From Bacteroidota bacterium (GTDB taxonomy: Bacteria; Bacteroidota; Ignavibacteria; UBA10030; SZUA-254): a DNA stretch of 64,000 nucleotides. The notes under the pieces were generated by a model. The model was given only the letters and a program-made list of their open reading frames with translations. It was not told where the DNA came from and ran no database searches. Within the stretch, counting starts at the first letter, position 1. The number at the start of each line of letters is the position of its first letter. Positions 17,887 to 45,791 of this stretch are shown here, one piece after another. The stretch lies in assembly GCA_020056225.1 (NCBI GenBank), contig JAGVIE010000037.1, positions 1 to 64,000 of the forward strand, read 5' to 3'. The position numbers were made by a program, and so were the translations under genes.

Positions 17887-17922
17887 TTAATCATGACTTG
17901 TAAATAGTGAGCAATAAATATC

Positions 17923-17950
17923 AAGTACAAAGTTGAAAGTACAAAGAATC
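17923..17950. repeat. heptanucleotide-phased degenerate repeat
   Basis: AAGTACA-AAGTTGA-AAGTACA-AAGAATC: four 7-nt units in phase in the spacer before the sugar transferase gene. Similar 7-nt phased repeats occur at 20252-20279, 20314-20348 and around 44508-45004. Confidence 0.55.
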
Positions 17951-19640: not shown

Positions 19641-20243
19641 TCATCCGAACATTTCGTTTTCGATAATTCCGCAGATAACATGAGCCACAGTTATATGTCC
19701 CTCCTGTATCCGCTGTGTATCGTTTGAGGGAATAATTATTGATACATCCACAATTTCTTTTGATGAGCCACCATCTTTTCCAAGCAATCCGATAACTATC
19801 ATACCGCGTCTCTTTGCCTCTGCAATCGCAAAATTTACATTGACCGATTTCCCGCTGGTACTGATTGCAAGTAAAATATCGCCTTTATTTCCAAGTGCCT
19901 CAACCTGCCTTGCAAATACATTCTCGAATCCGATATCGTTTCCTCCTGCGGTCAACATAGATGTATCAGTTGTTAAAGCTATTGCAGGGAGAGCAGGCCG
20001 ATTTTCCTTCGTCATACGAATGACAAACTCGGTTGCTATGTGCTGAGCATCTGCCGCACTCCCGCCGTTTCCGCAGATGAGAACTTTCTTCTTATCGTTG
20101 AAGGCTTTCATCATGGTATCAACAGCTTTCAGGATATCACCCGTGCAAGAATCGATGATTTTTTTCTTCATCTCCGCGCTCTCATTGAGCTGATCCTGAA
20201 CGTATTTTTGCCGATGTAGAAGTGTTAAAGGTAAATGTGCCAT
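19641..20243 (-). CDS. gmhA: phosphoheptose isomerase
   Basis: A 200-residue SIS-domain protein that converts sedoheptulose 7-phosphate to D-glycero-D-manno-heptose 7-phosphate, the first step of LPS-core heptose synthesis. Signatures: CGNGGSAADAQHIATEF, LTTDTSMLTAGGNDIGFENVFARQ, GDILLAISTSGKSVNV, and the C-terminal QRIQEGHITVAHVICGIIE with the metal/catalytic histidine. Length is normal. It heads a short unit with the helical ORF and the sugar transferase, all for surface polysaccharide. Confidence 0.95.
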   Translation of the reverse strand: MAHLPLTLLHRQKYVQDQLNESAEMKKKIIDSCTGDILKAVDTMMKAFNDKKKVLICGNGGSAADAQHIATEFVIRMTKENRPALPAIALTTDTSMLTAGGNDIGFENVFARQVEALGNKGDILLAISTSGKSVNVNFAIAEAKRRGMIVIGLLGKDGGSSKEIVDVSIIIPSNDTQRIQEGHITVAHVICGIIENEMFG

Positions 20244-20251
20244 ATCAATTC

Positions 20252-20348
20252 AAAAATAAAAAGTAAAAAGTAAAAAACGTTTGCTAATATTTACAACCAA
20301 CTAAGTACCAAGAACAAATAACAAATGACGAATAACGAATGACATTCA
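20252..20348. repeat. two blocks of heptanucleotide-phased repeats
   Basis: AAAAATA-AAAAGTA-AAAAGTA-AAAAAAC-like units at 20252-20279, and ACAAATA-ACAAATG-ACGAATA-ACGAATG-ACATTCA at 20314-20348, the last unit touching the alaS stop. Period is 7 nt in both. Confidence 0.6.
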
Positions 20349-28500: not shown

Positions 28501-29282
28501 CCCGATCCGGATACTGGGTAAAAGCCAACAGCGACGGTATATTAGTACTCTCGACATCAACCGGTCGTTCGCAATACAGAGAAAATGTTTTCTTTTCGAA
28601 GAACCATCTTAATACTTTGATTATCAGAGATAGCGATGGAAACCGCCAGACATTATATTTTACTCTTGATGACGCGAACGCTAATATCGACCGGTATACA
28701 TTACCGCCTCTGCCGCCGGCAGGAATGTTCGATGCGCGATTTACAACTCAGAGGATGCTGGAAATTATCCCGAACAATCTCCAGTCGTACTTTGAAAGAG
28801 CCATCATGCTCACATCGCCGCAATATCCTCTTACTATCAGTTGGGACATCGGTGCTGACAACATCGATTATTCTCTAATTGATGGCAATCGTAACATCAT
28901 CCCTATGATGGGCAAAGGATCAGTTACTATCCAACAGCCGACGACACAAATTGTTCTACACGCCGAAAGAAGCTTACAAACTACTCCGCTAACATTCAAA
29001 CTTGAACAGAACTATCCGAATCCGTTCAACCCATCGACACTTATCAATTATCAATTATCAAAAACCGGTCACGTTACATTGAAAGTATATAACACCCAGG
29101 GAAGAGAAGTTGCAACGCTGGTCGATGAAGTTCTGGAGGCAGGGTACAAATCCGTTGAGTTCTCCACCGAAGGCGGATCAACCTCTGACGGAAATGCAGG
29201 CAATCTCTCAAGTGGAATTTATTATTACAGGTTGACAACTAAAGATTTTACTGAAACAAAGAAGATGGTATTGCTAAAATAA
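25572..29282 (+). CDS. T9SS-sorted sortilin-like beta-propeller protein
   Basis: A 1236-residue secreted protein. After the signal peptide (IILLSLILFFIGFLGV) come BNR/VPS10-like propeller repeats to about residue 750 (GGLWKSISGG, GILKSTDGGTTW, GVYKSVDAGSTW, VYKTTDRADSW), an Ig-like domain at ~760-850 (SPNGGEV, LEYTSDNGTTWNLI), a ~140-residue module with GWNLLS...GWNMIGS...GYWVK (~855-996), and the type A T9SS sorting domain from ~1141 (LEQNYPNPFNPSTLINYQL). The sorting domain carries an extra TEGGSTSDGN stretch coming from a palindromic element. Propellers of this kind bind or modify glycans; no catalytic proof here. Confidence 0.88.
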   Translation: MKRKFSIILLSLILFFIGFLGVEHHSKLPSNTNEQVKLESGAWKAFEWWYAQRALPYEFIPRAGFQKAVRYLQSSMKKERKLLANGLSSSEWTSMGPTNIGGRVLAIAVNPDNTNIVWAGSASGGLWKSISGGTGSNAWNYINTGYSSLSISAIVLDPFNPNIMYIGTGEISMYHRPLVGTPGARASYGMGILKSTDGGTTWNQTGLLWSFPEITAVQKIVINPLNTQTIFAATSEGVYKSVDAGSTWIRSNSVLMAMDVVINPNDTSTLFSSHGNLDSSPNPGLYKTVNTGASWFMLTNGLPATGFGRTSLSVSPSNPSVIYASISDAMSGGALGLYKTTNNGNAWTLVNSTNIFGSVSRQGWYDNAIAVHPANPDTIFCGGIDVYKSTNGGGNLGVISVGVVHVDQHAIAFDPTNSNIIYFGTDGGVYKTIDGGTSFINCNNGFVTTQFYPGFANAYDDSTIAIGGLQDNGTLKFSGGGYWGNLLGADGGFCAIDPNNHDIMYYETQWLQLYKTTNGGWSAAYKVYGLPTGSGNSNFIAPFVIAPSNSNILYAGSKNVYKTTDRADSWFSSNGQTSLNGTNIACIGVAFTSADTLIAATGTGAFGVTPVFEVFASVNGGQLWTNVTNHLNGNQNLPDRYPTDIEFDPTNSAAAYLTYSGYGTSHLFKTTDVGQNWIDISGTLPDIPHQAVCVDPEDPANVYVGTDLGVFHSSDYGLSWEEFSSGMPSAMVLDVTISRRNGKLRASTFGNGVYQRPLVRIPSIDLTSPNGGEVCVAGAEETITWSKKFVDRIKLEYTSDNGTTWNLIADDIPASNGSYLWSVPAVGTDQARVRITNTGLTSVTDSSDAPFTILLHADAVRGWNLLSLHLNVSDPRSSTIFPTATGYTYSYNSSYIARDTLLNGVGYWIKFGVPQLIPIIGDSIETDTIDLKAGWNMIGSISKSVAVNNITEIPSGIVMSSYFGYSNGYSVVDTINPRSGYWVKANSDGILVLSTSTGRSQYRENVFFSKNHLNTLIIRDSDGNRQTLYFTLDDANANIDRYTLPPLPPAGMFDARFTTQRMLEIIPNNLQSYFERAIMLTSPQYPLTISWDIGADNIDYSLIDGNRNIIPMMGKGSVTIQQPTTQIVLHAERSLQTTPLTFKLEQNYPNPFNPSTLINYQLSKTGHVTLKVYNTQGREVATLVDEVLEAGYKSVEFSTEGGSTSDGNAGNLSSGIYYYRLTTKDFTETKKMVLLK
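29163..29192 (+). repeat. palindromic element inserted in-frame in a sorting domain
   Basis: TCCACCGAAGGCGGATCA and following bases match the element at 4527-4556 at 23 of the first 26 positions. It codes for TEGGSTSDG between KSVEF and NLSSGIYYY, where other T9SS domains have no extra residues. Confidence 0.65.
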
Positions 29283-42510: not shown

Positions 42511-43446
42511 ATGGCTGTACGCTATCCGAAGATCACTATCATCGGAGCCGGAACTGTCGGTTCGGCATTTGCAGTTGCACTCTTTGAAAAAGGTTATCCG
42601 ATAATCGGCATCATAAGCCGGACAGGATCATCGGCTATTAAATTAGCTCATGCCGTCAAATGTAAAAATGTTTCCACGCAAATATCAGACATACCGTTAA
42701 ATACTGAAATCATATTCATCGCTGTTCCTGACAGATCAATCAGGGAAGTAGCCGCTGAACTGGCAAAAGTTAAAAAAATAAAATTCAATAAATTATTCAT
42801 TGTACATTGTTCCGGTGTTCATTCCGTTGATGTGCTTGATCCTTTAAAGAGAAGAACCGCACTTGTAGGTTCAATCCACCCTGTTCAGACATTTCCTTCG
42901 TCCGGGAAACCGTCACGACTTCAATCTAAACTAAAAGGCATCTATTACGGAATCGAAGGCAATCCTGAGGCAGTTGATAAAATTCAGCAGATTGTAGAAG
43001 ATTTGGGTGGAAAGTCGATCGTTATACCCAAAGAGTTGAAACCACTCTACCATGTCGCTTGCGTGATGGCATCGAATTATCTGACTATGTTCCTTAATAC
43101 TATCACTGAACTTTCAAAGAAACTCGAAATGAAAGCATCCTGGGCGGAAGTTTTCGGACCTCTTATGATGACAACGATGGAGAATGTCATTCAATCGTCC
43201 GCACCGTTAGCGCTCACGGGTCCTATTGTTCGGAATGATTTTGAAACATTAGACCTTCATCTGCAAACGTTAAATGACTATGCACCTCAGTTCCTGCCTA
43301 TCTATACAATCGGGGGAATCGAGGTTGCGCGCATCGCAAAAGAAAACGAAAAAATAACACAAGAGAATTTTAACGAAATAATTAGTAAATTCAGAAAATT
43401 CATCAAATCAAGTTCAGTTAAAAATATTTCTAAGGTGAAACGGTGA
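42511..43446 (+). CDS. Rossmann-like DUF2520 protein
   Basis: 311 residues. N-terminal NAD(P)-binding fold (TIIGAGTVGSAFAVALFEKG, IIFIAVPDRSIREVAAELA, VHCSGVHSVDVL, IHPVQTFPS) and a helical C-terminal DUF2520 domain like that of 6-phosphogluconate-dehydrogenase-type enzymes (HVACVMASNYLTMFLNTI, GPIVRNDFETLDLHLQTL). The substrate is unknown. It is 7 nt after amrB and its stop overlaps the GTG of the next gene. Confidence 0.88.
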   Translation: MAVRYPKITIIGAGTVGSAFAVALFEKGYPIIGIISRTGSSAIKLAHAVKCKNVSTQISDIPLNTEIIFIAVPDRSIREVAAELAKVKKIKFNKLFIVHCSGVHSVDVLDPLKRRTALVGSIHPVQTFPSSGKPSRLQSKLKGIYYGIEGNPEAVDKIQQIVEDLGGKSIVIPKELKPLYHVACVMASNYLTMFLNTITELSKKLEMKASWAEVFGPLMMTTMENVIQSSAPLALTGPIVRNDFETLDLHLQTLNDYAPQFLPIYTIGGIEVARIAKENEKITQENFNEIISKFRKFIKSSSVKNISKVKR

Positions 43447-44507
43447 AAGCATTAATAGCCAGTGGCGGACACGGCACGCGCCTGCGTCCACTAACGCATA
43501 CTCAGAACAAACATCTCATACCTATTGCAAACAAGCCGATACTGCATTATGCTATCGAAGCGGCAGTCGATGCGGGAATTAAGCAGATCGGGATCATTCA
43601 CAATGCCGACAGCAAAGAAGTTCCGAATGCAATCGGGAATGGGAAAAGATGGGGAGTAAAAATAACATTCATCCCGCAAAAAACTCCCGCGGGACTCGCG
43701 CATGTTGTAAAGATCGCAGAGAAGTTCATCGGGAAGGATAATTTTATTTTCTACCTTGGCGATAATATGGTCGTAGGCGGCGTGAAAAGATTCATAGATG
43801 AATTCGAGAAGAGCGACTGCAACTGCTGGCTGACGCTTTCAAGAGTCAAGGATCCGGAACGATTCGGTGTGCCTGTAATAAAGAATAATAAAATAATTAA
43901 GGTAGAGGAAAAACCTTCGAAGCCGAAGAGCCAATTCGCTGTTGCCGGAATTTACATTTACGACCGGCATATATTTGAAGCAGTAAAGAAAATTAAGCCA
44001 AGCGCGCGCGGCGAGTATGAAATTTCCGATGCTCACACTTACCTCATCGAGCATGGATATAAAGTCGGATACAGCGAGATAACCGGATGGTGGAAAGATA
44101 CCGGCAAACCTGCTGATTTGCTTGAAGCCAACCGTTTGGTGCTTGATAACATCGAACCAAATATTAAAGGTGACACTGACAAGATTTCATCCGTTCTCGG
44201 AAAAGTTATTCTCGAGGAAGGATCGAAAGTCGTTAACAGTGTAATTCGGGGACCTGCGATCATTGGCAAAAATGCTGTAATTGAAAATAGTTATATCGGA
44301 CCGTTTACATCCATCGGAAACAACACTATTATCCAGAACGCCGAGGTTGAGTACAGCATTGTTCTTCGCGATTCGAAAATTATGAATGTAAAACTCCGCA
44401 TCGAAGGCAGTATACTTGGTAATGACGTGGAGATTGTTGAAGCGAACGGCAAACCGCATGTACACCGGTTTATGATCGGAGACCAAAGCAGAGTTGAAGT
44501 AGCATGA
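43443..44507 (+). CDS. glucose-1-phosphate thymidylyltransferase, long RmlA type
   Basis: 354 residues. The nucleotidyltransferase motif is SGGHGTRLRPLTHTQNKHLIPI, with YLGDNMVVGG (metal Asp) and EEKPSKPKSQFAVAGIYIYD. Residues ~250-350 form a left-handed beta-helix (GPAIIGKNAVIENSYIGPFTSIGNNT), which marks the long RmlA group active on dTDP-sugar synthesis. Start is GTG overlapping the previous stop (GTGA). No RmlB-D are nearby. Confidence 0.9.
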   Translation: MKALIASGGHGTRLRPLTHTQNKHLIPIANKPILHYAIEAAVDAGIKQIGIIHNADSKEVPNAIGNGKRWGVKITFIPQKTPAGLAHVVKIAEKFIGKDNFIFYLGDNMVVGGVKRFIDEFEKSDCNCWLTLSRVKDPERFGVPVIKNNKIIKVEEKPSKPKSQFAVAGIYIYDRHIFEAVKKIKPSARGEYEISDAHTYLIEHGYKVGYSEITGWWKDTGKPADLLEANRLVLDNIEPNIKGDTDKISSVLGKVILEEGSKVVNSVIRGPAIIGKNAVIENSYIGPFTSIGNNTIIQNAEVEYSIVLRDSKIMNVKLRIEGSILGNDVEIVEANGKPHVHRFMIGDQSRVEVA

Positions 44508-45007
44508 TTGATATACGATGTGAGATGTGGGATATGCGTGTAAAGAAAGAGTGAGTATGGAAAAGGGATACGAAAAATTAGAGATTTATAAACTCGCACG
44601 CGAGTTGGCGATAAAGATTCATCAAATAACTTTATCCCTTCCAAAATTCGAGATGTACGAGGAAGGAAGTCAAATACGCCGTTCCGCTAAGTCAATCCCC
44701 GCAAACATAGTAGAAGGTTATTGTTTACGACGCCACAAGAATGAATACTTGCAATATCTCCATCGAGCGTTTGGTTCTTGTGAAGAAACAAAATATCACC
44801 TCGGAATTCTTTTTGAAACTCGCTCGCTTGACAATAAAGAAGTTTTTACAGAACTTTTAGAAAAATATGATCATCTTGGAAAGATGATATTTCGTTTTGT
44901 CGGGTCAGTAAGTATCAATCATCTTCCTCCATCCTATATCAAAGAACCTGATATTGAATATGAAACTTAATTAACTCACATCCCAAATCACATAGCGCAC
45001 ATCAATT
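44508..45007. mobile_element. four-helix-bundle gene bounded by inverted heptad repeats
   Basis: On the left TGATATA-CGATGTG-AGATGTG-GGATATG; on the right, read in reverse, TGATGTG-CGCTATG-TGATTTG-GGATGTG. About 21 of 28 positions agree, in 7-nt phase. The single gene between them is of the rRNA intervening-sequence type. This looks like one small mobile unit inserted between the RmlA and crotonase genes. Confidence 0.6.
44557..44970 (+). CDS. four-helix bundle protein (rRNA intervening-sequence family)
   Basis: 137 residues from ATG 44557. The pattern EKLEIYKLARELAIKIHQIT, QIRRSAKSIPANIVEGYCLRR, EYLQYLHRAFGSCEETKYHL is that of the TIGR02436 four-helix bundle family, first seen inside 23S rRNA intervening sequences and also found as stand-alone intergenic copies. 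Related Avd proteins serve diversity-generating retroelements, but no reverse transcriptase is here. The gene is framed by inverted heptad repeats. Confidence 0.88.
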   Translation: MEKGYEKLEIYKLARELAIKIHQITLSLPKFEMYEEGSQIRRSAKSIPANIVEGYCLRRHKNEYLQYLHRAFGSCEETKYHLGILFETRSLDNKEVFTELLEKYDHLGKMIFRFVGSVSINHLPPSYIKEPDIEYET

Positions 45008-45008
45008 T

Positions 45009-45791
45009 ATGGACTACCAAACACTACTTCTAACAATCAAAGACCGCATCGCGGTTATTACCATCAATCGTCCAGACAAGCTCAATGCATTGAATGCTCA
45101 ATGCAAAAGCGAGATGAAGGATTTATTCATCAATCTCAAAACCAATAATGAGGTTGATGCCGTAGTACTTACAGGCGCCGGTGAGAAAGCATTTGTTGCA
45201 GGGACTGATATAGGTGAGCTAACTTCACTCAATGCAAAGACTGGCGAAGAATTTTCCGCAAACGGAATCGCAAACCTCGATCTCATTCAACATCTTGGCA
45301 AACCGGTCATCGCCGCAGTAAATGGTTACGCCCTCGGCGGCGGCTGCGAACTTGCAATGGCATGTCATATTCGCATTGCATCCGAGAATGCAAAGTTTGG
45401 TCAGCCTGAAGTTAACCTTGGCACTTTTCCCGGTTACGGTGGAACCCAACGTCTCCCCCGTCTTATCGGGCACGGCAGAGCAATGGAAATGATACTGACA
45501 GGTAATCAGATCGACGCGAATGAAGCTTACCGCATCGGTTTAGTAAACAAAATTGTCCCGCTTGCCGATTTACTTTCAACGGCAGAAACAATGGCACGGT
45601 CAATAATCAGCAAAGGACAACCGGCAGTCCGATTAGCTCTTAAAGCGATCAATGCCACATTAGAAAAATCTTTGTCAGATGGCTTAAAGTACGAAGCAGA
45701 GCTGTGGGGCGAGTGCTGTGATACTGAAGATTTTAAGGAAGGCACGAAAGCTTTCATCGAAAAAAGAAAACCTACTTTCAAGGGAAAATGA
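45009..45791 (+). CDS. enoyl-CoA hydratase/isomerase (crotonase)
   Basis: 260 residues. Oxyanion-hole segments FVAGTDIGEL and NGYALGGGCELAMACH, plus both catalytic glutamates (GGGCEL and GQPEVNLG), then FPGYGGTQRLPRLIG. This makes it a true hydratase, most similar to short-chain or crotonyl-CoA-type enzymes. It acts in fatty or amino-acid oxidation, or butyrate-type routes. No other beta-oxidation genes are adjacent. Its stop overlaps the next ATG (ATGA). Confidence 0.93.
   Translation: MDYQTLLLTIKDRIAVITINRPDKLNALNAQCKSEMKDLFINLKTNNEVDAVVLTGAGEKAFVAGTDIGELTSLNAKTGEEFSANGIANLDLIQHLGKPVIAAVNGYALGGGCELAMACHIRIASENAKFGQPEVNLGTFPGYGGTQRLPRLIGHGRAMEMILTGNQIDANEAYRIGLVNKIVPLADLLSTAETMARSIISKGQPAVRLALKAINATLEKSLSDGLKYEAELWGECCDTEDFKEGTKAFIEKRKPTFKGK

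Follow-up and report, generated by a model that had tools for sequence, protein, structure and literature searches.

The locus studied here raises the question of whether a four-helix-bundle gene that lies between two protein genes, with inverted repeats of 7-nt units at its ends, is a mobile and self-folding element, and how it relates to the 23S rRNA intervening sequences from which its gene family is known. It lies in a stretch of 64,000 nucleotides (the window) at the start of contig JAGVIE010000037.1 of a Bacteroidota bacterium (assembly GCA_020056225.1, genome G000). All the features concerned are on the same strand:

43443..44507, + strand: GlmU-like nucleotidyltransferase gene, the upstream host; its stop codon lies directly before the 5' arm, and relatives have the same neighbour
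44508..44543, + strand: 5' arm, C-poor, made of degenerate 7-nt units (TGATATA CGATGTG AGATGTG GGATATG ...)
44557..44970, + strand: four-helix-bundle (S23p/IVP) gene, 137 aa, ATG at 44557 and TAA at 44968-44970; PF05635, TIGR02436, 2gsc
44971..45005, + strand: 3' arm, G-poor, reverse complement of the 5' arm, ending 3 nt before the crotonase ATG
45009..45791, + strand: downstream host gene, enoyl-CoA hydratase/crotonase, used for locating empty and occupied sites

A heptad-armed four-helix element at 44508-45007 had been described in an initial annotation of this DNA, and our analysis confirms that the observation is real. The element entirely fills the gap from the GlmU-like stop codon (44505-44507) to the crotonase ATG (45009). 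Its ORF matched PF05635 over nearly the full length (E 6.7e-29, 100.7 bits against a curated cut-off of 33.8) and also TIGR02436 ("four helix bundle protein"), with 98.5 bits where the cut-off is 24, and its protein thus belongs to this family by scores above both curated cut-offs over nearly the whole domain. Solved relatives are 2gsc, which was matched, and 2rld; a solved relative of the IVP protein is a pentameric ring. Only the IVP gene was found inside. The 5' arm reads TTGATATACGATGTGAGATGTGGGATATGCGTGTAA and pairs with the 3' arm, the complementarity between the two being higher than in dinucleotide shuffles (p=2e-4), and the combined self-match at lags 7 and 14 also exceeded that of the shuffles (p=0.002 for the 5' arm and p=0.0006 for the 3' arm), so that the description of the ends as inverted repeats of 7-nt units, on a copy placed between protein genes, holds. 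In the predicted RNA fold the arms make up the closing stem of both the MFE and the centroid structures; the overall folding z-score of this copy was modest (-1.37), only mildly better than shuffles.

The initial annotation also called the element "stand-alone". In one sense this was wrong: PF05635 was matched at nine places in the genome, eight of them full copies, and clear arms of their own flank seven of these eight. The copies with comparable ends that it had suggested looking for are therefore present and have heptad arms, with a unit sequence that differs from copy to copy (AGGGTTT, AGTAGGT, TAGCTTT and GAAGGAT are examples). The eighth full copy (L007) is degenerate. The ninth place (L009, contig C28) gave a weaker match, in a longer protein of 188 aa with a four-helix-bundle suffix domain (TIGR04258). 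We found no recent near-identical copies within one genome, the closest pair being 73% identical at the protein level. Beyond this genome, the family was found in 49 of 60 relatives, with a maximum of 16 matches per genome, and in 161 of the 248 genomes of a phylum-wide sample. For the scan of the collection, a closer IVP set was preferred to 21 diverse IVP proteins, whose alignment was too heterogeneous to serve as query, and the loci used for the statistics below are best-scoring family members rather than a random sample.

The arms were then compared in two samples. In 90 copies from the order, with controls taken 400 nt away, the self-match of the 5' arm at lags 7, 14 and 21 was 0.40, 0.38 and 0.36, against 0.25-0.29 in the controls; C made up only 10.9% of the 5' arm and G only 12.6% of the 3' arm, and the complementarity score between the arms of one copy averaged 37.7, compared with 20.8 (sd 5.2) for arms taken from different copies. 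The second sample, consisting of 72 named loci from Chloroflexi, Planctomycetes, Proteobacteria, Acidobacteria, candidate phyla, one archaeon and Bacteroidetes, agreed with the first (0.41-0.43 at lag 7; own-arm score 43.3 vs. 20.6). Of 163 copies, 119 were fitted best by a unit of 7 nt and 32 by one of 8 nt, whereas the controls scattered. At 19 RAYT-type (Y1) loci from the same genomes, neither a lag-7 signal nor heptad arms were found. We regard the observed arms and their pairing potential as practically beyond question. It could still be argued that such arms are ordinary products of intergenic slippage, or terminators, that flank a small gene by chance, as solo heptad arrays without an IVP gene exist (for example, that at 20238-20345 of the window) and an ordinary hairpin occupies the empty Flavobacterium-like sites described below. 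Against this, most of the 163 copies, from many phyla, share the same layout, the strand-specific depletion of C and G and the matched arms; moreover, the arms covary with their partners and the pattern is absent from RAYT loci. We find chance scarcely credible as an explanation.

Two kinds of 7-nt periodicity elsewhere in the window deserve mention. Intergenic arrays with neither an IVP gene nor a clear inverted partner nearby were observed at 20238-20345 and 17905-17945, and are possibly solo arms or remnants. Heptad-like stretches at 29033, 54185 and 56413 were considered as arms and rejected, being coding and similar to secretion-sorting signals (NPSTVIRYQLP); coding stretches of this type are a source of false positives for 7-nt periodicity.

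Covariation was analyzed at one site of a Flavobacterium-like genus, with 26 orthologous elements and a structure taken from one of the sequences, which favors the stem somewhat. The 42-pair stem (42 bp) was formed in 76.4% of the cells, compared with 50.3% at most when the arms were slid. Changes on both sides were counted in 100 cells, where shuffles gave 62 (sd 6), and the covariation score of 0.195 compares with 0.110 (sd 0.009) in the shuffles. The slid control carries more weight than the shuffle test, which is inflated by common descent, the structure moreover coming from a single sequence. Four U-A/A-U flips, eight columns apart, changed jointly in both arms, as would be expected if the repeat units were homogenised. 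Within each of the Flavobacterium-like lineages, own-arm matching exceeded matching across species (p=0.005 and p=0.025). When RNAalifold was run on the full alignment, no more than the inner portion of the stem was retained. The predicted self-folding is thus supported by compensatory change, as judged from the alignment of this one orthologous site.

The position of the elements with respect to their neighbors was equally regular. They shared the strand of their upstream gene in 61/63 and 59/59 decided cases, and that of the downstream gene in 65/69 and 52/54, counts that rest on a simple longest-open-frame caller. RAYT loci were less strict for the downstream strand (10:5, small numbers). 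That the elements stand in sense orientation in operons is observed directly and, in our opinion, leaves hardly any room for doubt. By gene names read by eye from the flanking protein sequence, elements were present in the gaps gatB-like/tpiA, ftsA/ftsZ, recN/cysS, metK/ahcY and hypF/hypD, and in the gap upstream of guaA. Two copies (L001 and L023) lie within a type IIG restriction-modification gene, where they occupy the linker that joins its YYTP and ACGSG motifs, and the host frame stays open through both; empty homologues (L061-L065) have a short linker at this place. Across all copies, a second sense frame was open through the ORF in only 5 of 163. Changes in the IVP frame between the two nested copies were distributed 10/0/20 by codon position, and therefore it is the IVP protein that selection keeps. 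L058, a third copy, has an open host frame and a broken IVP frame. Other in-frame inserts, similar in appearance to REP-type palindromes, make the same linker a hot spot (L059, L066, L067, L069, L073 and L077).

Comparison of relatives at fixed sites bears on mobility. The gap between the GlmU-like and crotonase genes was occupied in G000, G001 and G013 and without the element in G007, G003, G006 and G002, and that of G007 is empty (25 nt) although this genome belongs to the same genus as the occupied G013. Empty sites between the two host genes (the upstream one then labelled rmlA-like) had been proposed as a check on the idea of an insertion, and here one is found within the genus of an occupied site; the finding that would have spoken against it, the gene at the same place without repeat ends, was not met, since both relatives with the gene at the window site (G001 and G013) have heptad arms of their own. 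The 70-nt gap of G003 contains some heptad-like letters and no ORF, and could be a remnant. At the Flavobacterium-like site, which was read in 50 species, the element was present in all 30 closest species and in four more; of the other 16, 11 were empty with an ordinary hairpin, two had another hairpin, two had decayed remains and one was masked. The hairpin of the empty sites (L279, L283-L285, L287, L288, L290-L293 and L296) is of the kind AGAGCCAAGA...TCTTGGCTCT. Two of the Flavobacterium-like species have flanks that are 99.4% (upstream) and 95.5% (downstream) identical, with IVP proteins only 62% identical and different arms. Near-identical flanks around different element lineages mean that the element was swapped cleanly. 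In addition, the element of L282 at this same site belongs to another IVP subfamily and differs in its arms, and L034 and L106 hold one element lineage (77% identical) at different sites. No target-site duplication was identified when occupied and empty sites were compared by eye, the intergenic leaders being too diverged to tell. On the basis of the gain, loss and clean replacement observed at fixed sites, we consider mobility over evolutionary time very likely. The initial interpretation as a mobile, self-folding mini-element is accordingly supported, self-folding by covariation and mobility by this record, with the qualification that the mechanism of movement has not been shown.

Many sites are common to distant genera, and their IVP proteins are each other's best match, so that inheritance by old vertical descent may account for much of the distribution. 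One could go further and regard the element as a regulatory cassette, old and inherited vertically, whose IVP protein would bind the stem within the mRNA of its own operon and tune the processing or stability of the neighbors, while fast drift and occasional loss mimic mobility. Same-site IVPs are indeed usually mutual closest relatives even across families (at the metK-ahcY site, in six genomes), and the codon-position pattern of the restriction-modification pair amounts to purifying selection on the IVP frame. However, a cassette of this type does not readily account for the clean swap between two species with 99.4% identity in the upstream flank, for the different IVP subfamily at the same site, for the single lineage at different sites (L034 and L106) or for the element inside a restriction-modification gene. 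We think it unlikely as a whole, though not negligible.

The reading we favor, with somewhat better than even confidence, is that the window copy is one of a widespread class of sense-strand mobile mini-elements, usually located between two genes of an operon. In this model, an element would consist of an IVP/S23p four-helix gene between a 5' arm built from units of 7 or 8 nt and a pairing 3' arm, and the arms would close into a long stem in the operon mRNA with the IVP gene in the loop. A double-strand RNase may then cut the stem, as in rRNA intervening sequences; this is inferred by analogy, without transcript data, and we give it about an even chance. The cut would separate the upstream and downstream messages without harm, and the insert would therefore be tolerated. 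The IVP protein may bind its own arms and aid the spread of the element, an inference of which the binding part is already tentative and somewhat short of even. Finally, the repeat units might permit the arms to slip and re-match, so that the sequence would drift with pairing kept. Taken to its full extent, the model becomes that of a cross-phylum class, mobile at the RNA level, which homes to fixed positions in operon mRNAs and to open frames, stays paired through slippage and has the IVP ring as its sole encoded factor, the rRNA intervening sequences being the minority that landed in rRNA; this is possible, and we are inclined to doubt it rather more than to believe it.

How an element without a recognizable transposase moves is a question that these results raise. 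A host reverse transcriptase is unlikely as the driver: RVT_1 was matched in 11 of the 60 relatives, is absent from this genome and does not track IVP copy number (rho -0.05, 60 genomes). IVP number did follow that of Y1_Tnp in the same 60 genomes (rho 0.72, p 7e-11; Fisher test on presence, p 2.5e-6; uncorrected for shared ancestry). Moreover, at the GlmU-like/crotonase gap of G010 (L043), heptad-like arms enclose no IVP gene but a RAYT-like transposase gene and a small unknown ORF. Both observations would suit a DNA element moved in trans by RAYT/IS200-kind Y1 (HUH) transposases that recognize folded single-stranded ends, the arms being hairpins of DNA and not of RNA. Nevertheless, RAYT genes have short palindromes of their own, as does the one at L043, and lack heptad arms; seven genomes with IVP elements gave no Y1 match, shared ancestry and genome habit may account for the correlation, and IVP elements are very strongly sense-oriented. 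We judge such a DNA element improbable and, as the RAYT ends differ, the seven IVP-bearing genomes lack Y1 and ancestry is uncorrected, take the Y1 transposase as only a lead.

Among known systems, a classical insertion sequence or MITE would require a transposase, or ends shared with a transposase-bearing element, and this is not met, the IVP gene being alone inside. No terminal sequence shared between copies was identified, and arm sequence differs among the copies of one genome. REP/RAYT elements and MITEs are likewise small hairpin-forming inserts of intergenic space and permissive protein loops, but the IVP elements encode a protein and have paired 7-nt arms, absent from RAYT flanks, that differ in sequence from one copy to the next. 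The Avd protein of diversity-generating retroelements is a four-helix bundle, like IVP, and is said to form a pentameric ring; however, the reverse transcriptase with template and variable repeats that defines those systems is not met here, as G000 has no RVT_1 match. The TAACTGA heptamer direct repeats of Beggiatoaceae, Cyanobacteria and Bacteroidetes are intergenic and mostly in sense with the downstream genes (PMC4679880). They share with the IVP elements the 7-nt period and the intergenic location, but consist of one fixed, unpaired heptamer, and neither S23 nor four-helix proteins nor intervening sequences are mentioned in the paper describing them (PMC4679880).

The closest likeness is to the 23S rRNA intervening sequences with an S23p ORF (Coxiella, Leptospira and others), which have in common with the present elements the protein family and an end-paired stem enclosing the ORF, a feature that the window fold (p=2e-4) and the Flavobacterium-like covariation fulfil. 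The Coxiella intervening sequence is cut by RNase III, and its ORF is immediately preceded by heptamers (GACAGAT) repeated in tandem (PMC4990558). Heptamers before the ORF are also met in the window arm and across the 163 copies, whereas cutting is reported for Coxiella and only inferred for the elements described here. The difference lies in the place, between or inside protein genes and not in rRNA, and in the arms, which in most copies are matched arrays on both sides. No Rfam rRNA was found in 20 IVP loci of the order or in 20 named loci. A location of the element in 23S rRNA was considered and rejected: the full-length 23S matches of the IVP-bearing relatives checked were 2.75-3.0 kb, without an insert of element size, and no 23S rRNA gene was found in the near-complete G000 assembly. 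The window element, lying between two protein genes, is therefore not an rRNA intervening sequence by location. No description of this class outside rRNA was found in the open-access papers searched; subscription papers were mostly outside our scope, and an account elsewhere is not excluded. "Four helix bundle protein" or "23S rRNA-intervening sequence protein" is annotated in very many genomes without a known function, and the PF05635 and TIGR02436 models describe only the protein, with nothing on arms, orientation or mobility; the paired 7-nt arms, the sense-only operon position and the record of gain, loss and swap give this family a context and a testable role. The window copy is best read as a hairpin element of mRNA that is mobile, lies in sense orientation and is related to rRNA intervening sequences. 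The known rRNA inserts, in turn, look like one branch of a widespread and little-noticed class, and their unclear origin would be explained if rRNA were one landing place of a general mRNA element.
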